DNA from: Clostridia bacterium
GTDB taxonomy: Bacteria; Bacillota; DULZ01
Assembly: GCA_012840125.1 (NCBI GenBank)
Contig: DULZ01000009.1
Span: 1 to 47,434, forward strand
Reading direction: 5' to 3'
DNA length: 47,434 bases
Below the pieces are notes generated by a model, which worked only from the letters and a program-made list of their open reading frames with translations, had not been told where the DNA came from and ran no database searches. Below, piece by piece: positions 2,241-42,186 of the stretch (position 1 is its first letter; each line of letters starts with the position of its first letter). Made by a program: the position numbers and the translations under genes.

Positions 2241-3065
2241 ATGGCGATTAAAAAATTCAAACCAACCTCGCCGGGCCTCAGGCAGATGTCCGTTAACACC
2301 TTTGAGGAGATTACGACCGATCAACCTTATAAGCCATTAACGGCGCCCCTTAAAAAGAAGGCAGGTCGTAACAGTCAAGGGACCATCACTGTCAGGCACC
2401 AGGGCGGGGGACATAAGAGAAAGTATCGCATCATTGATTTCAAGAGGGATAAAGACAACATCCCGGCTAAAGTAGCCACCATTGAATACGATCCGAACCG
2501 TTCGGCTTACATCGCGCTGTTGAATTACGCTGACGGTGAAAAGAGATATATTATTGCACCCCATGGGATTAAGGTCGGCGACGTGCTGTATTCAGGTCCC
2601 GAAGCTGATATCGTTACGGGTAATGCCCTTCCTTTGAGAAACATTCCCGTGGGTACCGTCATCCATAACATTGAACTAAAGCCCGGGAAAGGCGGCCAGC
2701 TGGTTCGTTCCGCAGGCAGCTCAGCGCAGCTGATGGCCAAGGAAGGCGATTACGCCCATGTGCGGTTGGGCTCCGGTGAAGTGCGCTTGATCCACCTTAA
2801 CTGCCGGGCCACTGTCGGTCAAGTGAGCAATATTGAACATGAGAACATTACCATCGGGAAAGCAGGGCGTTCCCGCTGGATGAACAAGCGGCCTTCAGTC
2901 CGCGGTGTCGTGATGAACCCGGTGGATCACCCCCACGGCGGTGGTGAAGGTAAGACCGGTGCCGGTCGTAACCCGGTTACACCATGGGGCCATCCGGCAT
3001 TGGGCAGGAAGACCAGGAAGAAGAACAAGGCATCAGATCGCCTGATCGTGAAACGCAGGAAATAG
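2241..3065 (+). CDS. rplB: 50S ribosomal protein L2 (uL2)
   Basis: The 274-residue product starts [18 protein letters not shown]. It includes the N-terminal rRNA-binding OB-like region ([15 protein letters not shown]) and the C-terminal motif [15 protein letters not shown] at about residues 229-243, whose histidines are near the peptidyl transferase centre and needed for its assembly in studied ribosomes. The ATG at 2241 follows GAGGAGGG. Family length is about 275, so it is complete. Confidence 0.98.
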
Positions 3066-3083
3066 GAAAGGAGGTCACACTCT

Positions 3084-3368
3084 GTGGGAAGATCCTTAAA
3101 GAAAGGGCCATACTGTGATCCCAAGCTGTTGGCGAAAATTCAAAAGATGAATGAAACCGGTGAAAAGAGAGTCATTAAGACCTGGTCGAGACGTTCCACC
3201 ATTTTCCCGGAAATGGTTGGGCATACGCTGGCAGTGCACGATGGCAAGAAGCACGTACCCATCTACATCACCGAGGATATGGTGGGGCACAAGCTGGGAG
3301 AATTCGCTCCTACCAGGGTTTTCAAAGGACACGGAGATCATACGGAACGGTCAACGGCCTTGAAATAA
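3084..3368 (+). CDS. rpsS: 30S ribosomal protein S19 (uS19)
   Basis: The 94-residue product starts at [19 protein letters not shown], with AAAGGAGGT about eight bases upstream. The conserved [20 protein letters not shown] and the C-terminal [18 protein letters not shown] are present. S19 forms a head complex with S13 and contacts the A-site finger and bridge B1a. It lies between rplB and rplV, the invariant order of the S10 cluster. Confidence 0.98.
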
Positions 3369-3403
3369 TTTGTTGATGACGGCTTTTAGGAAGGAGGGTC
3401 TAT

Positions 3404-3742
3404 ATGGAGGCCAAGGCAGTAGCAAAGTATATTAGGATCTCCCCGAATAAGGTGCGGCAGGTCGTCGATCTTATTCGCGGCAAGGATGTGGCTGAGGCAC
3501 TGGCCATTTTGCGATTTGTGCCCAAAAGAGCGGCGACCCCGGTGGCGAAGTGTTTGAAATCAGCCATTGCGAACGCTGAGCATAATTACAACATGGATGT
3601 TGACAATCTCTATGTGGCGAAAATTTGTGTGGATCAAGGACCCACTTTGAAGAGATACAAACCTCGGGCTTTTGGAAGGGCTGACATGATTAGAAGACGG
3701 ACCAGCCATATTACCGTGGTGGTTAAGGAAAAGGAGGTTTAG
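3404..3742 (+). CDS. rplV: 50S ribosomal protein L22 (uL22)
   Basis: The 112-residue product starts [20 protein letters not shown], the hallmark L22 N-terminus, and ends with the beta-hairpin region ([20 protein letters not shown]) that extends into the exit tunnel next to L4. The start codon follows GGAGGG closely. The gene is three bases upstream of rpsC, so the two are likely translated together. Confidence 0.98.
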
Positions 3743-3745
3743 TTA

Positions 3746-4405
3746 GTGGGGCAAAAGGTTCATCCTAAAGGATTGCGGATCGGGATCATTAAGGATTGGG
3801 ACGCCAGGTGGTTTGCAGATAAGGATTACACCGAACTCTTGCATGAAGATATTAAAATCCGCCGTTATTTGAAGCAAACCCTGTACAGCGCCGGCATCCC
3901 GAAAATTGAAATAGAGCGGGCGGCCAACAGCATGCGGATTTACCTGCATACAGCGAAGCCCGGTATCGTGATCGGTCGCGGCGGCAGCGAAGTGGAGAAG
4001 CTGCGTCACCAGCTGGAACACATGACCGGCAAACGGGTCAGCATCAATATCGTTGAAGTTAAGAAACCTGAGCTGGAAGCTCAATTAGTGGCGGAGAACG
4101 TAGCCGCCCAGTTGGAAAAACGGGTATCCTTCAGGCGTGCCATGAAGCAAGCCGTGAGCCGCACCATGCGCATGGGAGCGGAGGGGATCAGGATTGCTAT
4201 CTCCGGCCGCCTGGGAGGAGCGGAAATTGCTAGAACGGAATGGTACAGCGAAGGCAAAGTGCCTCTTCATACCTTAAGGGCTGATATTGACTACGGGTTT
4301 GCCGAAGCCATGACTACTTACGGTAAACTGGGGGTCAAAGTCTGGATCTACAAGGGAGAAGTCCTTCCAGAGGCTAAAGAGGCGGTACAGGAAGGGGGCA
4401 AATAA
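3746..4405 (+). CDS. rpsC: 30S ribosomal protein S3 (uS3)
   Basis: The 219-residue product starts at [23 protein letters not shown], after AAGGAGG inside the end of rplV. It has the KH-type RNA-binding segment with the GXXG-like [14 protein letters not shown] at about residues 74-87, and the C-terminal domain with [21 protein letters not shown]3 lies at the mRNA entry channel and contributes to helicase action. It is complete, and rplP follows after two bases. Confidence 0.98.
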
Positions 4406-4407
4406 AC

Positions 4408-4845
4408 ATGTTGATGCCAAAAAGGGTTAAATGGCGTAGACCTCATAAACCGAGAAACTTAAGCGGTCGTGCGCAAAAAGGGAATGAGATCGCCTATGGT
4501 GAATACGGATTGCAAGCATTGGAACCCGGTTGGATTACCAGTCGGCAAATTGAAGCGGCTCGTATTGCCATGACCCGTTATATTCGCCGCGGCGGTAAAG
4601 TTTGGATTAAGATTTTCCCCGATCGCCCCATTACTTATAAACCGGCGGAAACCCGGATGGGTAGCGGAAAAGGTACGCCGGAGTACTGGGTAGCAGCGAT
4701 TAAACCTGGTAGAGTATTATTTGAGCTGGCGGGTGTTTCGGAAGAGATAGCCCGGGAGGCTATGCGGCTTGCAGCCCATAAGCTGCCGGTCAAAACGAAA
4801 TTCATCACGCGAGCAGAATTGGGTGGTGAAGCCAATGAAAGCTAA
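4408..4845 (+). CDS. rplP: 50S ribosomal protein L16 (uL16)
   Basis: The 145-residue product starts [14 protein letters not shown] and includes the conserved [20 protein letters not shown] and [14 protein letters not shown] segments. L16 helps shape the A-site region of the large subunit and is added late in assembly. A GAAGGGGG site lies nine or so bases before the ATG. The 3' end overlaps the rpmC start by 11 bases. Confidence 0.98.
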
Positions 4846-5041
4846 AGAAGTGAGAGACTTGACCACAAAAGAACTGCAAAAAAAGGTGGAGGATCTCAAG
4901 CAGGAACTGTTCAACCTGCGGTTTCAGTTGGCTACCGGGCAATTAGATAATCCCATGCGGATTAGGGACGTGCGCCGGAATATTGCCCGCGTCAAGACAG
5001 TTCTCCGCGAGCGGGAATTAAAAGAGACAAAGGTGAAATAA
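4835..5041 (+). CDS. rpmC: 50S ribosomal protein L29 (uL29)
   Basis: The 68-residue product starts [20 protein letters not shown] and has the [19 protein letters not shown] motif typical of L29, a helical hairpin near the tunnel exit. An upstream in-frame ATG at 4769 would add 22 residues coded inside rplP. It is rejected because L29 proteins start with this MKAKE-type sequence, and GGTGG precedes the ATG at 4835. The overlap with rplP suggests coupling. Confidence 0.96.
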
Positions 5042-5053
5042 GGAGGGATTTCC

Positions 5054-5317
5054 TTGACCGAGAGAGGTAGACGTAAAGTCCGGATCGGGCGCGTTGTCAG
5101 TGATAAGATGGACAAAACCATCGTAGTTGCCGTAGAAACTTTGAAAAGGCATCCTCTCTATGGCAAAAGAGTGAAGACCAGTAAGAAGTTCAAAGTCCAT
5201 GACGAGAACAACGAATGCCGCGTGGGAGACCTGGTCAAAATCATGGAAACTCGTCCGCTGAGCAAAGAAAAAAGATGGCGCTTGGTGGAGATTGTTGAGA
5301 AAGCACAACAGATTTAA
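5054..5317 (+). CDS. rpsQ: 30S ribosomal protein S17 (uS17)
   Basis: The 87-residue product starts at [23 protein letters not shown], with AGGAGGG about seven bases upstream. The [20 protein letters not shown] segment is diagnostic for S17, an OB-fold protein that binds 16S rRNA early in assembly of the body. It sits between rpmC and rplN as in other Firmicutes. Confidence 0.97.
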
Positions 5318-5358
5318 TCATAGAGGCAGGCAATTACCGAGAAAAGGGGGGTAGTCCT

Positions 5359-5727
5359 GTGATTCAACAAGAAAGCAGGCTCAAAGTCGGTGACAACAGT
5401 GGGGCGAAAGAGATTCTGTGCATCCGCGTTTTAGGCGGTACCGGGAAAAAGTATGCCACCGTCGGCGATGTGATTATCGCTTCCGTTAAAGAAGCAACAC
5501 CAGGAGGCGTTGTTAAAAAAGGTGACGTGGTAAAGGCCGTGGTGGTGCGGGTTAACCGGCCCATCAAGAGACCTGACGGTTCCTATATCAAGTTTGACGA
5601 GAATGCGGCGGTGATTATTAACGATCAGGGAAACCCGCGGGGCACCCGTATTTTTGGCCCTGTAGCCCGGGAACTGCGGGAAAAGGATTTCATGAAAATC
5701 ATTTCCCTGGCGCCGGAAGTGCTGTAA
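5359..5727 (+). CDS. rplN: 50S ribosomal protein L14 (uL14)
   Basis: The 122-residue product starts at [22 protein letters not shown], preceded by AAAGGGGGG. The sequence includes [20 protein letters not shown] and [14 protein letters not shown], both invariant in L14. The protein contacts L19 and 16S rRNA helix 14 and is the binding surface for the silencing factor RsfS. The length of 122 is exactly the usual one. Confidence 0.98.
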
Positions 5728-5760
5728 TCGGCATGATACTCATGGATGGAGGTGAAGATC

Positions 5761-6084
5761 TTGGCCTCGAAAGTTCACGTTAAGAAAGGTGACACAGTAG
5801 TCGTTATTACCGGGAAAGACGCAGGGCACAAAGGGAAAGTGCTGGCGGTATTTCCCAAAAACCAAAGGGTAGTTGTAGAGAAAGCCAATATTGTGAAGCG
5901 GCATACCAGGCCTACCAGGACCATGCCTCAAGGCGGTATTATTGAGAAAGAAGCGCCGATTCACAGCTCCAATGTGATGTTGGTTTGTCCTAAGTGCGAC
6001 AAAGCCACCAGGATTGGGAAAAAAGTCTTGGCCGACGGGAGTAAGGTCAGGACATGCAAGAAGTGCGGTGAAGTAATCGATTAG
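5761..6084 (+). CDS. rplX: 50S ribosomal protein L24 (uL24), zinc-ribbon form
   Basis: The TTG at 5761 gives a 107-residue product starting [20 protein letters not shown], the standard L24 beginning with its KOW motif. An ATG at 5746 in the same frame overlaps the Shine-Dalgarno GGAGGTG and is rejected. The C-terminus carries two CxxC pairs, C76/C79 (CPKC) and C99/C102 (CKKC), so it probably binds one zinc ion, unlike the Bacillus protein that lacks them. L24 initiates large-subunit assembly. Confidence 0.96.
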
Positions 6085-26234: not shown

Positions 26235-26972
26235 TTGCGGGTAGTGTTTCTGGTACTGCACCGGCGGGCGCTATGTTTGATCATTCTGAGCCTGTTAGGC
26301 CTAACTCTTTCCGCCCTGTTTGTGTTTTATGTAAACTATGGTACTGCCGACCGGGAGGCAGCCGGTCAAGAGACCTTCAACTGGGTTTTAGGAGGAAAGA
26401 CCATCGCCCTGGACCCGGGCCATGGAGGCTACGACCCGGGCGCCAAAGGCCCGGGCGGCAGCCTGGAAAAAGATATCAACCTGGCCATTGCCCTTCAGTT
26501 ACAGCAAGTGCTGGAACAAGCCGGCGTTAACGTAGTGCTGACCCGGGACCGGGATGTGGACCTGCTTACCCCCGGTGAGGGAACCAAGAAATACCGGGAT
26601 TTGAGCAACCGGTTGAAACTGATCCGTGAGCAAGGGGCGGAACTGCTGGTCAGTATTCACCTGAACAGCTCCGGCAGCCGGTGGCGCGGTGCCCAGGTCT
26701 TTTACCACCCGAAGGACCCTCGCAACAAGGAACTGGCGGTAGCTATCCAGGCTGAAATCCGTAACCGGTTACAAAACACCACCCGCCAGGCACTGCCCTT
26801 GACCACGGCTTACCTGCTGAAGGAAATTGACATCCCCGCCGTGATTGTCGAAGCAGGCTTTATCAGTAATCCGGAAGAGGAAAGACTCCTCAACCGGGTT
26901 GATTACCAAGAAAAGATGGCGCAAGCCATTGCCGGGGGCATCCTTAAATATTTGTCATGTGTTGACGAATAA
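26235..26972 (+). CDS. cwlD: N-acetylmuramoyl-L-alanine amidase CwlD
   Basis: The 245-residue product starts at TTG. A hydrophobic anchor spans about residues 10-33. The Amidase_3 domain carries IALDPGHGGYDPGAKGPGG, SIHLNS and VEAGFISNPEEERLL, which supply the zinc ligands and the catalytic glutamate. CwlD, with PdaA, makes muramic-delta-lactam in spore cortex peptidoglycan. cwlD near rpsI is a common order in spore formers, which supports the assignment. A vegetative amidase is the alternative. It lies 200 bases after the rpsI terminator. Confidence 0.88.
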   Translation: MRVVFLVLHRRALCLIILSLLGLTLSALFVFYVNYGTADREAAGQETFNWVLGGKTIALDPGHGGYDPGAKGPGGSLEKDINLAIALQLQQVLEQAGVNVVLTRDRDVDLLTPGEGTKKYRDLSNRLKLIREQGAELLVSIHLNSSGSRWRGAQVFYHPKDPRNKELAVAIQAEIRNRLQNTTRQALPLTTAYLLKEIDIPAVIVEAGFISNPEEERLLNRVDYQEKMAQAIAGGILKYLSCVDE

Positions 26973-31037: not shown

Positions 31038-31636
31038 GAGGAGGTGGCTCTTTTTGACGCCATCCGTTTAGGGGGCAGCCCTCACCAACGGGACAGATGC
31101 CTACTTCCGCCCCATTTGAGGAACGGGGCGGGGTGCCGGCTGCCGTCGAACAAGGGTTTTCCCTAGGGAGCTCGCCGGCGGGGGGAAAGAAACTTCGCCG
31201 CCTTAAAACCGCAGTGATCATGAGCCGGTGGCCCCTAAGCCCAGGCAATTAAATGGAAGAGTCAGGGGCAGCGCCCACTTGATATCCCTCATGATGGATT
31301 GGGTCAGAGCATATGCTACACTAGGCGAAGCTGCATCTGTTATGCCAGAGATGTCCGGGCTATACCGGTAGCGGACGGTTTCTTAAAGGAGGAAACCCGG
31401 GCGGCCGGGGGACAGCTCCGCGGGTTCCCGGCGCCACCGGGATTGGAGGAACATAACCGGGACATGAAGGCACTGACCCGGTCACGGGGGGATGCCGGCA
31501 TCCAGAGTCTTTCTGCCGGGATGCACCCCAAACGCCGGAAACCATGATGGCCGCCGTTCAGGAAGATGTGGACGTAACGGGTGAGCAAGGCCGGCCCCCG
31601 GGGCCGGCTTCGGCGACACCGGAAAGGAGGCGAAGC
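31038..31636 (+). other. 600-base gap with no convincing gene; palindromes
   Basis: No frame here has recognisable protein features or good start context. The stretch is GC-rich and has several inverted repeats: CATCT/AGATG near 31336-31355, a GCTA/TAGC hairpin near 31361-31374, AACCCG/CGGGTT near 31396-31430, and the perfect palindrome GGATGCCGGCATCC near 31490. They resemble parts of a structured RNA or the scar of a lost element, but I cannot match a known family. The last 20 bases hold AAAGGAGG, the ribosome site of the next gene. Confidence 0.35.
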
Positions 31637-33553
31637 ATGCCGAAACCGAGTACCAGCTTTTTGAAGAGTATTACCCCCTTTAACACTTTGACGGATAAAG
31701 AAATTGAAGAAGTAGCCGCCCACTTGGAGTATGCCATTTACACGCCGAATACTTACGTTTTCCGCCAGGGAGACCCTTCCCAAAATGTCTTGTTTATCAT
31801 TGAAGAGGGACTGGCCGAGGTGATGGTGTCCGGCGATCATGTTACGGAAACCATTGTCAGTTACCGCAAAGCCGGGGACTTTTTCGGTGAGACGAGTTTA
31901 ATTGTCGGGCAGGAGTACTCCGGTTCCGTCAGGGCGGTGGAAGAACTGCGCTGCTGGCTGCTGCCCAAGGAAATCTTTGAGCAGTTGCTGTATAAACCTG
32001 CCTTCAGCCACTTTTTCACCAGGATTATTACGGAACGAATGAGATCTCTGTATGATGAAATCGGCCGGGAACAAGCCCAATCGGCTTACTTGGTGGAAGC
32101 AGGCACTTTTCGCCGCCGCATTAAAGAGATTATGTCAACTCCCGTGATGACCTGCAGTCCCGAAGATACCGTGGAGGACATTGCGGAAAAAATGGTTAAA
32201 GCCAATGTAAGCTCCCTGGTTATGGTGAACGAAGCCCAGGAGCCCATCGGATTAGTTACGGAGAGGCATTTGGTTACCAGGGTGCTGGCGAGTAAACGAA
32301 CGGCCCGCCTGACCAAAGCCGTCGAGATCGCCGATCCTGTTTCCTCCTCCCTCAGCCCGGATGCCTTTTTCTACCAGGCGCTGCTGACGATGGTGCGGCA
32401 CCGGGTGAAACATTTAACGGTGGTATCTGAACAAAAACTGGCGGGCATTGTCACCATCAGCGACTTGATTAAGACCAGAAGCGTAGGCACCATCAGTATT
32501 CTTCAGGACATCGAAGACCGGCACACCATACCGGAACTGGCTTCCGCCGTCGCCCCCCTCAACAACGTGCTGAAAGCACTGATGGCAGAGAAAACGCCGG
32601 TAAGAGAAATTACCGCCATCATGAATGAATACTATGATCGCCTCACCCGTAAAATCATCTCTATTGCGGAAAGGGAACTGGCGGATGAAGGTTTTGGGTC
32701 TCCCCCTGCCGATTATTGTTTCATCAATATGGGCAGCGGCGGTCGCCGGGAGCAGTCCCTGCGGACGGATTTGGACAACGCCATTATTTTTGCCGAGCCG
32801 GAGGGGTTGACCCGCGAGGAAGCCAGGGCTTACTTCTTGGCTTTAGGCCGCCGGGTGATTGACGGGCTGGTCCTGTGCGGCTTTAAGAGATGCAACGGGG
32901 ACGTGATGGCATCCAACCCTGCCTGGTGCCGTTCCTTAACGGAATGGATGGAGACGGTGCAGGATTGGTTTCAAAATCCCAGTTCCATCAATATTCGCCA
33001 CTTGACGATTTTCCTGGATTTCCGTCCCCTGGCCGGCCAAGCAGAGCTGGCTGAGCGGTTGAGGAACTGGATTTTCGATCTTTTTGTGCAATCTCCCCTG
33101 GCTTCTCACCTATTGGCCGCTGATGAACTCCAGTACCGGCAGCCCCTCTCTTTGACCGGGAGGTTCATTACCAGGAAGGACGGGCCCCATAAAGGGGAGA
33201 TTAACCTGAAAATCTCCGCCTGCGTGCGGGTTGTGGATTGTGTAAGGCTGTTTGCTTTGAGGCACAGGATTGAGGAAACTTCTACCTGGGATAGGCTCGA
33301 TCGCTTGGCTACCCTGCATATTTTAAAGAAGGATGATGTTGAGTTTTTCGGTGCCGCCTATGAAACCCTGATGTTTTTCCGGCTCAGGGAAAATCTAAGA
33401 AAAGTAATCATGGGCAAAGAAGCCGATAATTACATCAATCCCGATCACTTGACGAAAATGGAAAGGTCCCTCTTGAAAGATGCTTTTATCGCCATCGGCA
33501 AACTGCAGAAAATAACCAACAACCATTTCAGTATTTTCTGGTTGGCCAGGTGA
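31637..33553 (+). CDS. cNMP-binding / CBS / DUF294 nucleotidyltransferase-like protein
   Basis: The 638-residue product from the ATG at 31637 has, in order, a cyclic-nucleotide-binding-type domain (about 10-130, with VLFIIEEGLAEVMVSGDH), a CBS pair (about 155-285, STPVMTCSPEDTVEDIAEKM), a DUF294 nucleotidyltransferase core (about 320-470, GSGGRREQSLRTDLDNAIIF, the GS...D.D motif), and a DUF294_C domain to the end. The family is built like GlnD/GlnE-type uridylyl/adenylyltransferases but its target is unknown. No transmembrane part is seen. The 31544 start is rejected in favour of the ATG after AAAGGAGG. Confidence 0.9.
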   Translation: MPKPSTSFLKSITPFNTLTDKEIEEVAAHLEYAIYTPNTYVFRQGDPSQNVLFIIEEGLAEVMVSGDHVTETIVSYRKAGDFFGETSLIVGQEYSGSVRAVEELRCWLLPKEIFEQLLYKPAFSHFFTRIITERMRSLYDEIGREQAQSAYLVEAGTFRRRIKEIMSTPVMTCSPEDTVEDIAEKMVKANVSSLVMVNEAQEPIGLVTERHLVTRVLASKRTARLTKAVEIADPVSSSLSPDAFFYQALLTMVRHRVKHLTVVSEQKLAGIVTISDLIKTRSVGTISILQDIEDRHTIPELASAVAPLNNVLKALMAEKTPVREITAIMNEYYDRLTRKIISIAERELADEGFGSPPADYCFINMGSGGRREQSLRTDLDNAIIFAEPEGLTREEARAYFLALGRRVIDGLVLCGFKRCNGDVMASNPAWCRSLTEWMETVQDWFQNPSSINIRHLTIFLDFRPLAGQAELAERLRNWIFDLFVQSPLASHLLAADELQYRQPLSLTGRFITRKDGPHKGEINLKISACVRVVDCVRLFALRHRIEETSTWDRLDRLATLHILKKDDVEFFGAAYETLMFFRLRENLRKVIMGKEADNYINPDHLTKMERSLLKDAFIAIGKLQKITNNHFSIFWLAR

Positions 33554-33571
33554 GCTTAAGGAGGTGGGCTG

Positions 33572-34315
33572 GTGGAAAGGATTACCCAGTGGTTGAGCCT
33601 CAGGTACGTGAAATGGAACAGGCCCTGCGCGGCCGGCGGCTGGGAAGAGGAAATCAACCAGCGGATCAGCTTGCTGCGCCCGCGGCAACTGCGCGGCGTT
33701 CCCTTAGAAGAAACCCGTTTTGTGGTTTTTGATACGGAAACCACCGGTTTCTATCCGAAAAAAGGTGACGAGCTTCTATCCATTGGCGCAGTGATCCTGG
33801 AACAAGGCCAAATCCAGGAGGAGACTTTTCACCGTTTTATTAACCCGCACCGGCCGGTACCCCAGGTGGTGACGGAACTGACCGGCATTACGCAGGCACA
33901 AGCCGATCAAGGTGAAGAAGCGGCCGTAGTCATCAAGGATTTCCTGGATTTTGCCGGGACCTGTGTGCTGGTAGGTCACTCGGTGGATTTTGATTTATGT
34001 TTCCTTAATCACACCCTGAAGAGGTTGGGCTGCCAGGCCATAAGCCTTCCTGCTCTAGACACTTACTGGCTGGCCAAGGCTGTTCATCCCGGGTACCCGG
34101 ACTTGTCCTTAGACGGATTACTGAAGCTGTATGGGCTGGAACCGGTGGGCCGGCACACGGCCCTGGGAGATGCTCTTCTCACGGCTAAGGTGTTTATCAG
34201 ATTGTTGGAACAGTTGAGCCCGCTCAAGTTCTGCGATTATTTTGACCTGTGCAGCTACATCCAGCGCCGGAACTGGCAGCATGAATTCGTCGGGACCCGT
34301 TCTCCCCGGCTGTAA
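33572..34315 (+). CDS. DEDDh 3'-5' exonuclease (DnaQ-like)
   Basis: The 247-residue product starts at GTG after AAGGAGGTGGG, 18 bases past the DUF294 gene. The exonuclease motifs are intact: FDTETTG with D54 and E56, VGHSVDFD around 134-141, and RHTALGD with H195 and D200. The fold is that of the DNA polymerase epsilon-type proofreading domain, but the 45-residue N-terminal extension is not typical. Genes of this kind recur next to cNMP/CBS/DUF294 genes. A nucleic-acid or nucleotide signal-degrading function is inference. Confidence 0.88.
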   Translation: MERITQWLSLRYVKWNRPCAAGGWEEEINQRISLLRPRQLRGVPLEETRFVVFDTETTGFYPKKGDELLSIGAVILEQGQIQEETFHRFINPHRPVPQVVTELTGITQAQADQGEEAAVVIKDFLDFAGTCVLVGHSVDFDLCFLNHTLKRLGCQAISLPALDTYWLAKAVHPGYPDLSLDGLLKLYGLEPVGRHTALGDALLTAKVFIRLLEQLSPLKFCDYFDLCSYIQRRNWQHEFVGTRSPRL

Positions 34316-35893: not shown

Positions 35894-36916
35894 CTATCTT
35901 TGCACGCGCCCGGAGGCGTCACCCTTCATAAGGGCTTCCACTTCCTTTTGCGAGACCAGGTTAAAGTCGCCGGGAATCGTTTGTTTCAAAGCCGAGGCCG
36001 CCACGGCAAACTCCAGGGCGGTTTCGGGCTCCATGCCGGTGACCAGGCCGTATATAAGGCCGGCGGCAAAGGAATCCCCGCCCCCTACCCGGTCCACCAG
36101 GTGGATCTGGTACCGGCGGGAGAAGTGAGCGGTGCTCCCGTCGTACAGCATGGCAGACCAGCCGTTGTCGGAGGCGGACAAGCTTTCCCTGAGGGTGACG
36201 GCCACATATTTGAAACCGAAGCGCTCTTTCAGCTGCCGGGCCACATCCTCATAGGCGGCATGATTGATTTCGCCCTTCTGCACATCTGTGTTCTTGGCTT
36301 TGATGCCGAACACTTTTTCCGCATCCTCTTCATTGCCGATGCAAACGTCCACGTAAGGCATGAGCATGCTCATGGTGGCATTCGCCTCTTCCGGGGTCCA
36401 GAGCTTCCGGCGGTAATTGAGGTCCGCCGAAACCGTCAGTCCTATCTCTTTGGCGGCTTGACAGGCTTCCAGTATGATGGTCCTGCTCTTGGCACTGAGG
36501 GCCGGGGTGATGCCGGTGAAATGGAACCAGCCGGCGCCGGCGAAGATTTCCCGCCAGTTAAAATCACCCGGTTCAGCTTCCGCGATGGATGAATGGGCCC
36601 GGTCGTAAATCACTTTCGAGGGGCGCTGGGCGGCCCCGGTCTCCAGAAAGTAAATACCCAGGCGGCTGCCACCGCGGGCGATGAAGCGGGTATCCACCCC
36701 GTACCGGCGCAAACTATTGACAGCACATTGACCGATTTCATGTTCCGGCACTTTAGTGACGAAAGCGGCTTCCAGCCCGAAGTTGGCCAGTGCCACCGCC
36801 ACGTTGGCCTCCCCGCCGCCGTAGCAGGCGTCAAAACGGTCGGCCTGCACAAACCGTTGATGGCCGGGTGTGGACAGCCTTAACATGATTTCACCGAAAG
36901 TTACTACTCTTGCCAT
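35894..36916 (-). CDS. kdgK: 2-keto-3-deoxygluconate kinase (PfkB family)
   Basis: The 340-residue ribokinase-family protein starts MARVVTFGEIMLRLSTPGHQ and carries DACYGGGEANVAVALANFG and the C-terminal anion-hole motif DRVGGGDSFAAG, with the catalytic base D281. This variant of the usual GAGD motif is normal in KDG kinases. It phosphorylates 2-keto-3-deoxygluconate to KDPG for the aldolase just upstream in the same operon. The minus-strand start follows GAGGAGG, 16 bases downstream of the kdgA stop. Confidence 0.92.
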   Translation of the reverse strand: MARVVTFGEIMLRLSTPGHQRFVQADRFDACYGGGEANVAVALANFGLEAAFVTKVPEHEIGQCAVNSLRRYGVDTRFIARGGSRLGIYFLETGAAQRPSKVIYDRAHSSIAEAEPGDFNWREIFAGAGWFHFTGITPALSAKSRTIILEACQAAKEIGLTVSADLNYRRKLWTPEEANATMSMLMPYVDVCIGNEEDAEKVFGIKAKNTDVQKGEINHAAYEDVARQLKERFGFKYVAVTLRESLSASDNGWSAMLYDGSTAHFSRRYQIHLVDRVGGGDSFAAGLIYGLVTGMEPETALEFAVAASALKQTIPGDFNLVSQKEVEALMKGDASGRVQR

Positions 36917-36932
36917 GGGATGACCGCCTCCT

Positions 36933-37580
36933 CTAAAAATTTCTCGCTTCTCTTACCTTGGCGACAAATTGCTTGGCCGTTTCCGTGACCAGGGCGAAAT
37001 TCCCGGTTTTCGCTCCGGCAGTGAGCTCACTGCCCACTCCTACCGCTACACAACCGCTGGTAATCCATTCCCGGACGTTGTCCAAGCTCACCCCGCCCGT
37101 CGGCATCAAGGGCGCCTGAGGCAAGGGACCTTTGAAAGCTTTCACGATTTTCGGCCCGAATAGGTTCCCCGGGAAAATCTTAATAATGTCCGCCCCGGCT
37201 TCCAAGGCAGCCAGCGCCTCCGTGGGCGTCATGCAGCCCGCCATATAAGGTATCTGGTACCGGTTGCACAGTTTAGCGGCGGCCGGATCAAAATTCGGGC
37301 CCACGATGAACTCCGCTCCGGCCAAGATGGCAATCCGCGCCGTCTCGCTGTCCAGTACCGTGCCGGCGCCCAGGATCAATTCCTCCGGGGAAAACTGTTC
37401 CCGCAGGGCGGCAATGACCTTGTCGGCCTGGGGCACCGTAAAAGTGATCTCGATAGCCGGGATGCCGCCCTCAAGACATGCCCTGGCAATCTTCTCCGCC
37501 ACTTCCGTGTTTTCCGCCCTCACTACTGCCACTACACCCACATCAATAATTCTTTGCAGGGTCTGCAGTTTCTTAATCAA
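36933..37580 (-). CDS. kdgA: KDPG / 4-hydroxy-2-oxoglutarate aldolase
   Basis: The 215-residue product starts at TTG after GGGAGGGA. The Schiff-base lysine is K134 in ADIIKIFPGN, and E44 (AIEITFT) is the conserved acid. MAGCMTPTEALAALEAGADI is typical of the Eda/KdgA class I aldolases. It splits KDPG into pyruvate and glyceraldehyde 3-phosphate. It is first in the kdgA-kdgK minus-strand operon, divergent from uxuB. Confidence 0.94.
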   Translation of the reverse strand: MIKKLQTLQRIIDVGVVAVVRAENTEVAEKIARACLEGGIPAIEITFTVPQADKVIAALREQFSPEELILGAGTVLDSETARIAILAGAEFIVGPNFDPAAAKLCNRYQIPYMAGCMTPTEALAALEAGADIIKIFPGNLFGPKIVKAFKGPLPQAPLMPTGGVSLDNVREWITSGCVAVGVGSELTAGAKTGNFALVTETAKQFVAKVREARNF

Positions 37581-37663
37581 AATGCTCCCTCCCTTGGTTA
37601 GAAAGAAATGAACTTCCCTGATTAAGTACCCAGCAGTTTAGTGCCATTGAGAACAAAAACATA

Positions 37664-37696
37664 TTGCAACTTGTATACTAATATGGTAGCATGTAA
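37664..37696 (+). promoter_or_regulatory. Promoter and putative GntR operator in the kdgA-uxuB gap
   Basis: TTGCAA at 37664-37669 and TAGCAT at 37687-37692 form a candidate promoter with 17-base spacing for uxuB. An imperfect inverted repeat overlaps it: TTGTATACTA at 37671-37680 against TAGCATGTAA at 37687-37696, whose complement TTACATGCTA matches at seven of ten positions, with a six-base centre. A FadR-type GntR regulator is coded at the end of this cluster and is the natural candidate to bind here. This is inference. Confidence 0.45.
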
Positions 37697-37733
37697 GTGA
37701 TCAAATGAAAAGGGCAAGGCCCAAAATAATCGG

Positions 37734-39341
37734 GTGAGCAAGATGAAACTTAACTTGCAAGATTTAAAAAACCGGCAGCCTTGGCTGGACAAGGGTTATG
37801 AGCTGCCTTCCTTCCCCTTGGAACAAGTGCGGGCGGCTACCTTGGCCGAGCCCACCTGGCTTCATTTCGGGGCCGGCAATATTTTCCGGGCTTTCCCGGC
37901 GGTGCTGCAGCAGCAGCTCTTGGAGCAAGGGTTAAGCAGCAAGGGCATTATCGTCTGTGAGGCTTATGATGAAGAGATTATTGAGAAAGCTTTCAGGCCG
38001 TACGATAACCTGACTTTGGCCGTCACTTTGAAGGCGGACGGCAGTCTTCACAAGCAGGTGGTGGCCAGCATTGTGCATGCCGTGACGGCGAGGGGCCATA
38101 TGGCATTCTTGGAAGAAGTATTCACCGCTCCGTCGCTGCAGTTGGTCACTCTTACCATTACCGAAAAGGGTTATTCTCTGACTGATGCTCGCGGTGGGTA
38201 TTATCCACAGGTAGTGCGGGAATTTGAAAGCCCGGCTGAAGAGCCCAAGAGCCTGATGGGCTTGATCGCCCGCCTGTGTTACAAGCGGTATAAGGCCGGG
38301 CGGCTGCCCTTGGCTTTAGTGAGCTTGGATAATTGTTCCCAGAACGGGACCGTGCTGTACCGGGCGGTGAAAACCTTTGCCCAAGAGTGGCACAAACAGG
38401 GACTGGTGGATCCAGGTTTTGTGGATTATCTCGACAACCGGGATCTGGTATCCTTTCCTTGGACCATGATTGATAAAATCACCCCCCGCCCTTCCGAGGA
38501 GGTCAGAAAAGTCCTGGAGCAAGACGGGTATGAAAGTGCGGCAATAGCCTGTACCGGCAAGAATACCTTTGTTTCTTCTTATGTAAACGCGGAAGAGGTC
38601 CAATACCTGGTCATCGAGGATGCTTTCCCCAACGGGCGGCCGCCCTTGGAGCAGGCGGGCGTCATCTTCACCGACAGGGAAACGGTGGACAAGGTGGAGA
38701 AGATGAAAGTGGGTACCTGCCTCAACCCCCTGCATACGGTCCTGGCTGTTTACGGCTGCCTCTTAGGGTACACCTCCGTGGCAGAAGAAATGAAGGACGA
38801 GCATTTAAAGCTGTTTATTGAGAGGCTGGCTTACCGGGAAGGATTGCCGGTGGTGGTGGACCCGGGCATTATCAGGCCGGAGGACTTCCTGCGGGAAGTC
38901 ATTGACAAGCGGCTGCCCAATCCTTTCCTGCCGGATGCGCCCCAGCGCATTGCCTGTGATACTTCCCAGAAAATCCCCATGCGCTTTGGGCAAACCTTGC
39001 AAGCCTATGTGAAGGCCGGTCAGGATATTTCCGGATTAACCTATATACCTTTGTTCATCGCCGGTTGGCTCAGGTACCTGTTGGCAGTGGATGATGAAGG
39101 ACAATCCTTTGTCCCCAGTCCTGATCCCATGTTGGATGTGCTGCAGGATTATCTCCGGGGACTTCATTTAGGATATCAGGGGGATTTAACCGGCTACGTG
39201 AAACCCATCTTGTCCGATGCGAGGATTTTCGGCGTGGATTTGTATCAATACGGCCTGGCGGCCAAAGTAGAGGGCATGTTCCGGGAACTGTTGGCCGGCA
39301 AGGGTGCCGTGAGGCAGACCCTTGATAAATATATACATTAA
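37734..39341 (+). CDS. uxuB: Mannitol dehydrogenase family protein, probable fructuronate reductase
   Basis: The 535-residue protein starts at GTG (MSKMKLNLQDLKNRQPWLDK), though the ATG three codons later is possible because no strong ribosome site is seen. It has WLHFGAGNIFRAFPAVLQQQ for NAD binding at the N-terminus and KMKVGTCLNPLHTVLAVYG with the catalytic lysine region. It belongs to the long-chain polyol/uronate dehydrogenases. Placement with uxuA, kdgK and kdgA indicates reduction of fructuronate to mannonate. Tagaturonate reductase is the alternative. Confidence 0.85.
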   Translation: MSKMKLNLQDLKNRQPWLDKGYELPSFPLEQVRAATLAEPTWLHFGAGNIFRAFPAVLQQQLLEQGLSSKGIIVCEAYDEEIIEKAFRPYDNLTLAVTLKADGSLHKQVVASIVHAVTARGHMAFLEEVFTAPSLQLVTLTITEKGYSLTDARGGYYPQVVREFESPAEEPKSLMGLIARLCYKRYKAGRLPLALVSLDNCSQNGTVLYRAVKTFAQEWHKQGLVDPGFVDYLDNRDLVSFPWTMIDKITPRPSEEVRKVLEQDGYESAAIACTGKNTFVSSYVNAEEVQYLVIEDAFPNGRPPLEQAGVIFTDRETVDKVEKMKVGTCLNPLHTVLAVYGCLLGYTSVAEEMKDEHLKLFIERLAYREGLPVVVDPGIIRPEDFLREVIDKRLPNPFLPDAPQRIACDTSQKIPMRFGQTLQAYVKAGQDISGLTYIPLFIAGWLRYLLAVDDEGQSFVPSPDPMLDVLQDYLRGLHLGYQGDLTGYVKPILSDARIFGVDLYQYGLAAKVEGMFRELLAGKGAVRQTLDKYIH

Positions 39342-39374
39342 GCCAAGCTTATGAAAAAAAGAGGAGGGTATTGC

Positions 39375-40403
39375 ATGAAAAAGGTCTTGTCGCTGTTGGT
39401 AGTGCTGGTGATGACGGTGGGATTGCTGGCCGGGTGCGGCGGCGGCTCATCATCGCCGGATGGCGGCGCAGGTAATGGAGTAGCGGATGACGGTAAAGTC
39501 TATGAACTGAAAATGTCTACCCAGCTGGCTGACACCCATCCCATGGTAACAGGTTTCAAGGAATTGGCCGCCAGGCTGAAGGAAAAATCCGGCGGCAGGT
39601 TAGTTATGGAAGTTTTCCCCAGCGCCCAACTCGGTTCTGATGAAGACGTAATTGAACAGGCTATTCAAGGAGTTAACGTGGCCGTTTTAACTGACGGCGG
39701 CCGGATGGGCAATTACGTGGAAGAAATGGGTATTATTCTGGCTCCCTATTTCGCTGACAACTACGATGAAGTATTAAAAGTCACGGAAAGCGATCTTTTC
39801 AAGCAATGGGAGCAGGAACTGGCGGAGGAACACGGCATCAGGGTGTTGTCCTTCAACTGGTATGATGGCCCGAGGCACTTTTTGACCAATAAACCCGTTA
39901 CCAAACCGGAAGACTTAAAGGGACAAAGGATCAGGACTCCCGGTGCTCCCGTTTGGTCTGAATCAGTGAAGGCCCTGGGCGCTACCCCTGTCTCCATGCC
40001 CTGGACCGAGGTCTACACCGCCGTGCAGCAAAAAGCCATCGACGGGGCGGAGGGGCAGCACACAGCCTCCTATACCTCTCACCTCTATGAAGTGCTGAAA
40101 TATATCGATAAGACTGCCCATTTCCAATTAGTCAACGGCATTATCGTGGGTGAGAAATGGTTCCAAACATTGCCTGAAGACTTGCAGCAGCTGCTCATTG
40201 AAGAGACTAAAGCCGTGGCGGCGGAAAACGCCAGGTATATTGAACAAGTAGCCGACGAATTCGAGCAAAAAATGGTGGAAGCAGGCATGGAAGTGGTTGA
40301 GGTAGACTTGGATGCCTTTAAGGCGGCCGCTGAACAAGCTTATGAAGTCTTAGGATTGAAAGAGCTGCGGGATCAGATTTACGCCGAGATTGGGAAAAAG
40401 TAA
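39375..40403 (+). CDS. TRAP transporter solute-binding lipoprotein (DctP)
   Basis: The 342-residue product from the ATG at 39375 (after GAGGAGGG) has a lipoprotein signal with C21 in LLAGC. A longer frame from 39351 is rejected. The mature domain has LKMSTQLADTHPMVTGFKEL, LKGQRIRTPGAPVWSESVKA with the family's carboxylate-binding arginine, and VYTAVQQKAIDGAEGQ. Context suggests a hexuronate or a related sugar acid as ligand. It is grouped with dctQ and dctM downstream. Confidence 0.93.
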   Translation: MKKVLSLLVVLVMTVGLLAGCGGGSSSPDGGAGNGVADDGKVYELKMSTQLADTHPMVTGFKELAARLKEKSGGRLVMEVFPSAQLGSDEDVIEQAIQGVNVAVLTDGGRMGNYVEEMGIILAPYFADNYDEVLKVTESDLFKQWEQELAEEHGIRVLSFNWYDGPRHFLTNKPVTKPEDLKGQRIRTPGAPVWSESVKALGATPVSMPWTEVYTAVQQKAIDGAEGQHTASYTSHLYEVLKYIDKTAHFQLVNGIIVGEKWFQTLPEDLQQLLIEETKAVAAENARYIEQVADEFEQKMVEAGMEVVEVDLDAFKAAAEQAYEVLGLKELRDQIYAEIGKK

Positions 40404-40424
40404 GCAGGCGGTGAGGCAATCTTT

Positions 40425-40901
40425 ATGAAGGCACTGTACAACGCCTGGTGCAAGTTGGAAGAAACGGTGGTGCAGGTGTTTCTGGTCACGATTACCTTCC
40501 TGGTCTTTGCTTCGGCTATTTTTCGCACCATCGGCAGGCCGCTGAACTGGGCCACGGATGTATCCTTGCTGCTCGTTGCTTGGACGGTATTTCTGGGAGC
40601 CGATATGGCTCTCAGAAATACCGGATTGGTGCGGGTGGACATGATTACGAAGCGGTTCTCCCCCCGGGGGCGGAGAATGATCCAATTAGCCTGGTATCTG
40701 GTTATGCTGGTGTTCCTGGCGGCACTTATCCGGTATGGGGTGCCCCTGGCGATAGAAAGCTCCAAGCGTTTGTTCCAAACATTGCGTATTAGTTATTCCT
40801 GGGCAACCATGAGTGTGCCCGTAGGTTCCTTCTGTATGATGATTACCATTGTGCTGCGAATGTCTAAGCTCTTCAAGAACCAAACCGTTGAGGAGAAATA
40901 A
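40425..40901 (+). CDS. TRAP transporter small permease (DctQ)
   Basis: The 158-residue protein has four hydrophobic segments and the DctQ markers FLVFASAIFRTIGRPLNWAT and TVFLGADMALRNTGLVRVDM. It is the small subunit that stabilises the large permease. It starts 21 bases after dctP and ends four bases before dctM. Confidence 0.9.
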   Translation: MKALYNAWCKLEETVVQVFLVTITFLVFASAIFRTIGRPLNWATDVSLLLVAWTVFLGADMALRNTGLVRVDMITKRFSPRGRRMIQLAWYLVMLVFLAALIRYGVPLAIESSKRLFQTLRISYSWATMSVPVGSFCMMITIVLRMSKLFKNQTVEEK

Positions 40902-40905
40902 GCCT

Positions 40906-42186
40906 ATGCTGGTTGTTTTGATCATCTTTTTGTTCTTGTTGATGTTCGGTATGCCGGTGGCCTTTGCCATCGGGGTTTCCGGTGTGGTCTATTTCCTCAT
41001 GACACCGGAAATCCCCTTTTCCATTGTGGTGCAGCGGGTGGTGGCCTCCACCCAATCATTTACCTTACTGGCCATTCCCCTGTTCGTCTTCGCCGGCAAC
41101 TTGATGAACTATACCGGGATTACCAAAAGGCTGGTGAAACTGGCGGACGTCCTGACCGGGCACATGTACGGCAACCTGGCCCAGGTGAGCTGTGTGCTCA
41201 GTACCCTCATGGGTGGGGTGTCAGGGTCCTCCAATGCCGATGCCGCCATGGAGTGCCGCATCCTCGGCCCTGACATGATTAAGAAAGGTTATGCCAGGGG
41301 TTACGGCGGTGCCATAAACGGTTTGTCTTCCCTCATCGTTTCCACTATTCCTCCGAGTATGGGCCTGATTATTTATGGTTCCGTAGGGGAAGTGTCCATC
41401 GGCCGCTTGTTTGCCGGGGGCTTCATTCCAGGTATTCTGATGGCTATCTTCCTCATGGTGACTGTATCGATCACTTCCCGTAGAAGGGGTTACCTGCCTG
41501 CCAGGGAGAAACCTGCTTCCTTGAAGGAAATTGCGGTGGCCGCAAAAGAGAGTTTTTGGGCTTTGATTTTCCCTATCCTGTTAATTGTAGGAATCAGGTT
41601 TGGCGTGTTTACCCCGTCGGAAGCCGGTGCTTTCGCTTGCGTTTATGCCATGTTCGTGGGGATTGTCATCCACCGGGAAATGACTTGGAAGGATTTCAAG
41701 GAAGCGGTGCGCAGCAGCGTGATGGACATCGGCGCCATCATGGTTATCGTAGCCTATTCGGGCATTATAGGCTACGGGATAGTCTACGACCGGGTGCCGC
41801 AGCACCTGGCGGAGTTTCTCATTGGCGTTACTTCCAATCCGGTCATGCTCTTGTTTATCATCATTATCTTTTTGATTGTCGCCGGCATGTTTGTGGAAAC
41901 CACCGTGGTGGCCTTACTGCTCACTCCTATCTTGCTGCCGGTGGTGACCAAAGTGGGCGTGGACCCGGTGCATTTCGGTTTGATCATGATGCCGATGGTG
42001 ACATTAGGCATTATGACACCTCCGCTGGGTATCGCGCTGTATACCGTGTCGTCCATTATGGAATGCCCGCCGGAAGAAGTGGTGAAAGAAGCCATCCCCT
42101 TCTACCTGGCCGTGATTGCCGTCATCGCTATCGTCGTTTTCTTCCCGGATTTGGTGCTGTGGTTGCCCAATCTCATTTTTGACTAG
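40906..42186 (+). CDS. TRAP transporter large permease (DctM)
   Basis: The 426-residue membrane protein from the ATG at 40906 starts MLVVLIIFLFLLMFGMPVAF. It has about 12 hydrophobic segments and the signatures LMGGVSGSSNADAAMECRIL and NGLSSLIVSTIPPSMGLIIY. A longer frame from 40849 lies within dctQ and is rejected. This is the substrate channel, most likely driven by sodium, of the uronate-type TRAP system. Confidence 0.95.
   Translation: MLVVLIIFLFLLMFGMPVAFAIGVSGVVYFLMTPEIPFSIVVQRVVASTQSFTLLAIPLFVFAGNLMNYTGITKRLVKLADVLTGHMYGNLAQVSCVLSTLMGGVSGSSNADAAMECRILGPDMIKKGYARGYGGAINGLSSLIVSTIPPSMGLIIYGSVGEVSIGRLFAGGFIPGILMAIFLMVTVSITSRRRGYLPAREKPASLKEIAVAAKESFWALIFPILLIVGIRFGVFTPSEAGAFACVYAMFVGIVIHREMTWKDFKEAVRSSVMDIGAIMVIVAYSGIIGYGIVYDRVPQHLAEFLIGVTSNPVMLLFIIIIFLIVAGMFVETTVVALLLTPILLPVVTKVGVDPVHFGLIMMPMVTLGIMTPPLGIALYTVSSIMECPPEEVVKEAIPFYLAVIAVIAIVVFFPDLVLWLPNLIFD

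Follow-up and report, generated by a model that had tools for sequence, protein, structure and literature searches.

The locus considered here raises the question whether two adjacent genes of a Clostridia bacterium form one functional unit and, if so, on what they act. They occupy positions 31,637 to 34,315 of contig DULZ01000009.1, analysed over a stretch of 47,434 nucleotides which is called the window in this text. The first gene encodes a DUF294-type nucleotidyltransferase fused to two putative sensor parts, the second a DEDDh 3'-5' exonuclease-type protein. Comparison of genomes showed that the pairing of these genes is more than chance, and they probably act as a pair that switches metabolism on or off. 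As a tentative reading, held with somewhat less than even confidence, the pair could be a reversible protein-modification switch, in which the transferase writes AMP (or another nucleoside monophosphate, NMP) and the exonuclease erases it.

Pairing of the transferase and the exonuclease

A search for DUF294 (PF03445) was performed over 398 genomes of the phylum. Matches were found in 67 genomes, 56 of which were counted, and 11 were excluded for having weak partial matches only (E about 1e-5 to 1e-3). For the exonuclease, a profile was built from 31 partner sequences and run over the same genomes. Its scores set short standalone proteins, at 209-311 bits, apart from PolC-type domains, which lie in frames of about 1400 amino acids and reach up to 218 bits. 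A standalone exonuclease was defined as a frame of at most about 300 amino acids with at least 209 bits, a cut chosen after viewing the list; exonucleases were counted among the matches listed, down to about 181 bits, and a weaker one in genome G309 is uncounted. Both genes were present in 48 genomes, DUF294 only in eight, the exonuclease only in one and neither in 341. An exonuclease accompanied DUF294 in 48 of the 56 genomes, compared with 1 of the 342 others (Fisher p 2.6e-52, in a test that treats related genomes as independent; the genomes span many families). In the sole genome with the exonuclease only (G283, 61% complete), the gene is cut by a contig end exactly where DUF294 would be expected. 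Three of the eight genomes with DUF294 only hold exonuclease sequence: in G002 and G058 a partial gene touches a contig edge, and in G309 tblastn detected a divergent exonuclease next to DUF294.

For the gene arrangement, 60 first regions and the window were clustered, resulting in 61 DUF294 genes from 51 genomes. The exonuclease is located immediately 3' on the same strand in 44 of the 61, the gap ranging from -22 to 132 bases; three of these cases (L048, L059 and L080) are manual additions based on tblastn hits, the match in L059 being a fragment only. In two loci (L072, L078) it is adjacent and convergent, and in three (L083, L085, L089) it lies about 5.4 kb upstream within the same gene cluster. 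L063 stands in tandem before another DUF294 gene that does have the exonuclease, five loci (L069, L075, L079, L086, L096) are second DUF294 copies in genomes with the pair elsewhere, and L088 ends at a contig edge. No exonuclease was found near DUF294 in five genomes (G230, G045, G048, G152 and G086). Since the exonuclease-less state requires eight changes scattered over the gene tree, the exonuclease looks to have been lost repeatedly. An exonuclease pseudogene, for which stops had been reported in G048, G086 and G152, was rejected for G086 after the frame was read, because the match extended beyond the ends of an intact short gene, PolC-exonuclease-like as judged by eye.

The distances among transferases followed those among exonucleases (r 0.87 for 41 pairs, permuted maximum 0.32, species descent being uncontrolled). 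Swapping partners in genomes with two pairs gave 0.84 versus 0.38 for G299 and 0.73 versus 0.71 for G111, and helped for G299 only.

The pair is also carried on plasmids. From 82 matching records, some of which match the CBS/cNMP part only, 20 were hand-chosen for different genera and examined; 19 of these DUF294 loci, from Pseudomonadota, Bacillota and Bacteroidota, have the exonuclease (18 by tblastn). The nineteenth is Hymenobacter, where the exonuclease is upstream of DUF294, so that the order is reversed and the genes are still adjacent, while no exonuclease was found within 5 kb of the Skermanella locus. The plasmid relatives are mostly 22-31% identical to the window transferase. A first-pass annotation of the window had mentioned this pairing in other bacteria, and had named random neighbourhoods as the outcome that would speak against it; the pairing is borne out by both surveys, and co-occurrence is far above chance.

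Domains and catalytic residues

All Pfam domains of both proteins exceed their curated cut-offs (Table 1). In the transferase they follow in the order cNMP-fold, CBS pair, DUF294, DUF294_C, which is the architecture of the COG2905-type signal-transduction nucleotidyltransferases. It is encoded by the one DUF294 gene in the window's assembly. The ATG start is preceded by a GGAGG-like site; an alternative ATG is present upstream at 31544 in the same frame, and the alignment of the two nearest relatives begins at residue 1 of the 31637 start. DUF294_C has been placed in a HEPN-related clan (PMC3710099).

Table 1. Coordinates of the gene pair and of the parts of the transferase in the window.
Feature	Position	Strand	Details
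cNMP-fold/CBS-CBS/DUF294/DUF294_C protein, predicted nucleotidyl writer	31637..33553	+	638 aa; Pfam and structure model
cNMP-binding-fold domain	31739..31990	+	residues 35-118; Pfam cNMP_binding E 2.8e-18; Tyr94 at canonical Arg position
CBS pair	32120..32476	+	about residues 162-280; Pfam CBS x2, E 2.1e-22
DUF294 nucleotidyltransferase core	32558..32983	+	residues 308-449; Pfam E 1.8e-43; GS...D378-x-D380
Third Asp D461 codon	33017-33019	+	3' of DUF294 core
DUF294_C helical domain	33107..33529	+	residues 491-631; Pfam E 1.6e-40
DEDDh 3'-5' exonuclease-type protein, predicted eraser or effector	33572..34315	+	247 aa; GTG start; Pfam RNase_T

The transferase motif GSGGRREQ..RTDLDN includes D378 and D380 and, together with D461 as the third carboxylate, makes up a Pol-beta-type active site. 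In the alignment of relatives, G366, S367, R370, E372 and D378 are kept in 61 of 61 DUF294 rows, D380 in 58 and D461 in 59. The three rows with D380N belong to one genus (G048, G152, G086), in genomes without a partner-family exonuclease, and probably represent one event. The exonuclease gene starts 18 bases past the transferase stop on the same strand. Its RNase_T domain (residues 51-208, E 3.3e-35) contains the complete DEDDh set D54, E56, D141, H195 and D200; among relatives, D54 and E56 are present in 48 of 48, D141 in 47 of 49 (Glu in the other two) and H195 and D200 in 49 of 49. The dnaQ_proteo model scored 108 against this protein, below its cut-off of 222.7. The gap, the GS...D.D motif and the DEDDh residues had all been described correctly by the first-pass annotation, and the loss of catalytic aspartates in most homologs, its second ground for refutation, was not observed.

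Predicted structure of the transferase

The transferase was modelled with AlphaFold2 (mean predicted local distance difference test score, pLDDT, 87.4; predicted template modelling score, pTM, 0.75) and structural matches were obtained by VIA-align. The catalytic half matched the N-terminal part of GlnE best (1v4a, Z 26.6, 338 residues aligned), followed by the C-terminal part of GlnE (3k7d, Z 25.9, 313 residues) and DrrA (6yx5, Z 25.6, 301 residues). These three matches, with root mean square deviations of 3.3-3.9 and 12-14% identity, are well clear of the remaining ones; each is either a protein AMP-transferase or the half of such an enzyme that deadenylylates. The next matches were cNMP and CBS domains (Z about 18-20), including AcuB with AMP/ADP. 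The predicted model has both the core and the helical domain of the GlnE/DrrA class of protein AMP-transferases, which favours a role as nucleotidyl writer, although a shared fold is no proof of function.

DEDDh enzymes act mostly on the 3' ends of RNA or DNA. The transferase could accordingly be thought to add nucleotides to the 3' ends of tRNA or small RNA, to be trimmed by the exonuclease, and small RNA ends were the alternative given in the first-pass annotation. Its proposal of a nucleotidyl writer is favoured by the predicted fold, while RNA ends are less likely than protein as the substrate, because the closest folds to the catalytic half are protein AMP-transferases; with the same reservation on fold and function, the RNA reading appears quite unlikely.

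A possible writer-eraser switch

In the protein-modification switch proposed here, the DUF294 protein would attach a nucleotidyl group to a tyrosine (or serine/threonine) of a target protein; AMP is the likeliest group, and the target may be a protein of carbon or nitrogen uptake or activation. The CBS pair would read the adenylate state and the cNMP-fold domain would sense a ligand, probably not cAMP. The DEDDh protein would then hydrolyse the NMP diester and release 5'-NMP, by which the target would be reset. The sensor site could be on the writer (window), on the eraser (Cupriavidus) or missing (Bacilli, beside AmtB). The genes with their conserved active sites, the near-obligate coupling and the predicted fold in common with protein AMP-transferases are observations; that a protein is modified, with which nucleotide and at which target, what the sensors bind and that the exonuclease takes the mark off are inferred.

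The case for an eraser draws on the tight coupling, on an asymmetry between knockouts and on the chemistry of the DEDDh site, where cleavage of R-O-P-O-5'-nucleoside yields 5'-NMP; the same bond is present in NMP-modified tyrosine. The DnaQ epsilon subunit reportedly hydrolyses the p-nitrophenyl ester of TMP, to go by the title of a 2002 work of Hamdan. In P. putida, pp_0354 and pp_0353 form an operon, and ErdR binds the promoter region of pp_0354; both genes are dispensable on acetate, and growth on pyruvate is slow in delta-pp_0353 (exonuclease), not in delta-pp_0354 (transferase) (PMC9927547). Slow growth of the former and normal growth of the latter would be expected, because the loss of an eraser would lock the mark on.

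An exonuclease that is itself the effector, trimming RNA or mRNA, and at the same time the transferase's own target, switched off or on by nucleotidylation, would be expected to give the same asymmetry; for this reason the writer-eraser switch is held no more firmly than stated above, and the effector reading is regarded as unlikely without being far-fetched. MntA transferase modifies its partner HepT in such a way. One-to-one pairing and matching distances would suit an effector, as would the phenotype being in the exonuclease mutant with none in the transferase mutant, and the authors themselves propose mRNA degradation (PMC9927547). On the other side, the conserved residues of the exonuclease are those of fold and catalysis, and no modification site stood out, without a dedicated test. 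Nor did a joint model in one chain dock the two proteins: it gave no usable interface, and at a pTM of 0.60 for the read-through chain no complex is supported.

Several observations weigh against a writer-eraser switch. That pTM of the joint model is lower than the 0.75 of the transferase alone. In two of the 61 rows, D461 is replaced by Ser with D-x-D intact (L095, 8536-10479; L097, 9005-10897), G045 and G230 have an intact transferase and no partner-family exonuclease, and several DUF294 paralogues lack an exonuclease of their own. The neighbours of the pair in the window, acyl-CoA dehydrogenase and malic enzyme, point to no target, and the pyruvate phenotype would be explained just as well by action of the exonuclease on RNA. 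The 3' exonuclease RNase T is presumably also of the DEDDh type. It failed to deAMPylate SelO substrates (PMC12663964). The exonuclease eraser of the first-pass annotation is compatible with the genetics of P. putida (PMC9927547), and is opposed by the case of RNase T, in which the substrate was another one (PMC12663964).

If the switch exists, protein AMPylation would have the DEDDh nuclease fold as a novel type of eraser. DUF294 proteins occur in several phyla, often beside acetate/monocarboxylate symporters, acetyl-CoA synthetase or ammonium transporters, so that a reversible AMPylation switch would amount to general control, at the post-translational level, over the uptake or activation of nutrients, and DEDDh enzymes would gain a role on protein. 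The wider claim, a widespread split AMPylation system with a DEDDh-fold eraser, in which sensors shift between partners and the catalytic core pair stays fixed, is bolder and seems rather unlikely at present.

Relation to known systems

The pair itself is already in print, in reports on P. putida (PMC9927547) and Bacilli (PMC3412718). The P. putida operon resembles the window pair in having a CBS-domain gene followed by an RNase_T-family gene (PMC9927547). Pflu5625 of P. fluorescens has cAMP-binding, CBS and nucleotidyltransferase domains like the window transferase and belongs to the CrbS/R regulon (MxtR/ErdR being CrbS/CrbR); nucleotidylation was predicted, and a mutant showed no phenotype (PMC5715377). 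In P. aeruginosa PAO1, the homologues adjoin actP/yjcH (PMC9927547, PMC5715377), and PA3232-PA3235 are up on propionate (PMC9765439). The Pseudomonas pair is linked to acetate/pyruvate use in these published descriptions, from which the likeness is drawn, whereas the window pair has no symporter directly beside it. The amtB operon of Bacilli, with DUF294 and dnaQ, shares the two-enzyme core (PMC3412718) and differs in the ammonium transporter upstream and in a transferase without cNMP and CBS domains.

GlnE and DrrA/SidM have the predicted fold of core and helical C-terminal domain in common with the window transferase. In GlnE, a second transferase domain of its own is the eraser, while the DEDDh protein would serve in the window pair; the targets differ. 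GlnD and DUF294 have related nucleotidyltransferase cores. The writer-eraser logic is also shared with GlnD, whose HD eraser domain is absent: no HD match was found in the Pfam scan of the window protein. A search of 20 genomes yielded no credible GlnD, GlnD_UR_UTase matching weakly in one of them with internal stops. PII (PF00543) had no match in the window's genome (G000), nor in seven of nine AmtB-linked genomes. PII is thus not the target in the window's genome, and was rejected as a general target for this and most AmtB-linked genomes. RNase Z, which takes AMP off proteins, is a nuclease reversing protein AMPylation as proposed for the window exonuclease; it has a metallo-hydrolase fold, not DEDDh, and the writer there is SelO (PMC12663964). 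A literature search, mostly without subscription journals, found no biochemical function for DUF294 proteins or the pair, and no paper stating the writer-eraser reading.

Sensor domains

Of the two ligand-sensing modules described at first pass, the cNMP one holds up only in part. Its fold is clear, but 54 of 56 rows have Tyr in place of the Arg expected in the phosphate-binding cassette. The cassette Glu85 is kept in 52 of 57 rows, and in ten plasmid rows neither Glu nor Arg is conserved. These Glu and Arg positions are presumably the contacts for the ribose and phosphate of a cyclic nucleotide; the canonical combination of both is lacking in the window protein. Because the phosphate-binding Arg is replaced, cAMP is doubtful as the ligand, and the cAMP effector suggested in the first-pass annotation is disfavoured. 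In the second CBS, the T-x-x-D ribose-type motif is kept (T273, D276), with Asp in 46 of 47 relatives, while the first has His211 where 41 of 47 relatives have Asp.

Gene neighbourhoods

Of the 51 genomes of the phylum, 16 have a sodium:solute-symporter cluster within five genes of the locus, nine an aconitase-like cluster (named by eye) and nine an acetyl-CoA-synthetase-containing cluster. The sister loci of the window adjoin methylmalonyl-CoA mutase. In all nine genomes with a short DUF294 protein (frames of 303-374 amino acids), its gene is flanked by an ammonium transporter on the upstream side and by the exonuclease on the downstream side. Among the 14 annotated plasmid loci, nine have a sodium:solute or acetate symporter gene ahead of the pair or of the DUF294 gene. 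On the Cupriavidus plasmid (L124), a 775-residue exonuclease (2465-4792), the long N-terminal part of which is kinase/PAS-like in a by-eye reading only, overlaps a sensor-less DUF294 gene (4752-5921); it looks as if the sensors had passed from the writer to the eraser. The Paracoccus exonuclease protein has 659 residues with RNase_T at 454-611. The two-enzyme core is constant; sensors and neighbours vary.

Both enzymes might merely be co-regulated with acetate or ammonium genes, neither acting on what the other produces, and the P. putida operon is indeed a target of MxtR/ErdR (PMC9927547). The pair persists, however, across differing contexts (acetate symporter, AmtB, methylmalonyl-CoA mutase), and its genes remain adjacent in the reversed order of Hymenobacter, which makes co-regulation an improbable explanation. 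DEDDh enzymes can also degrade dinucleotides. A small nucleotide signal made by the transferase and degraded by the exonuclease, as by Orn, would accord with this activity, the pairing and the sensors; no effector gene recurs beside the pair except transporters and metabolic enzymes, and there were no matches in 50,697 phage records, so that this reading is given very little weight. A phage system was likewise rejected by the absence of matches in these records.

Some further features were noted in the surroundings. In Alphaproteobacteria, a small gene of conserved position lies between DUF294 and the long exonuclease (L105, 6808-7305; L115, 6865-7386), without a Pfam match for the L105 copy, the one scanned. 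An adenylate kinase gene is annotated in the symporter/DUF294/exonuclease cluster (L115, 2071-2760; L122, 1853-2539). A candidate terminator between the pair and the malic enzyme gene found no support, the six terminator-like matches of this region being no more than shuffled sequence gives (mean 4.2). At 35894-42186, the window carries PfkB-type sugar kinase, KDPG/KHG aldolase, mannitol-dehydrogenase-family and DctP/DctM transporter genes, a set suggestive of hexuronate utilisation in the vicinity of the pair. The pair is beside kduD/kdgR in Vibrio cyclitrophicus and among GH43 genes in Hymenobacter. The gene of an Amidase_3-type cell-wall amidase, at 26235-26972, follows a long series of plus-strand genes.
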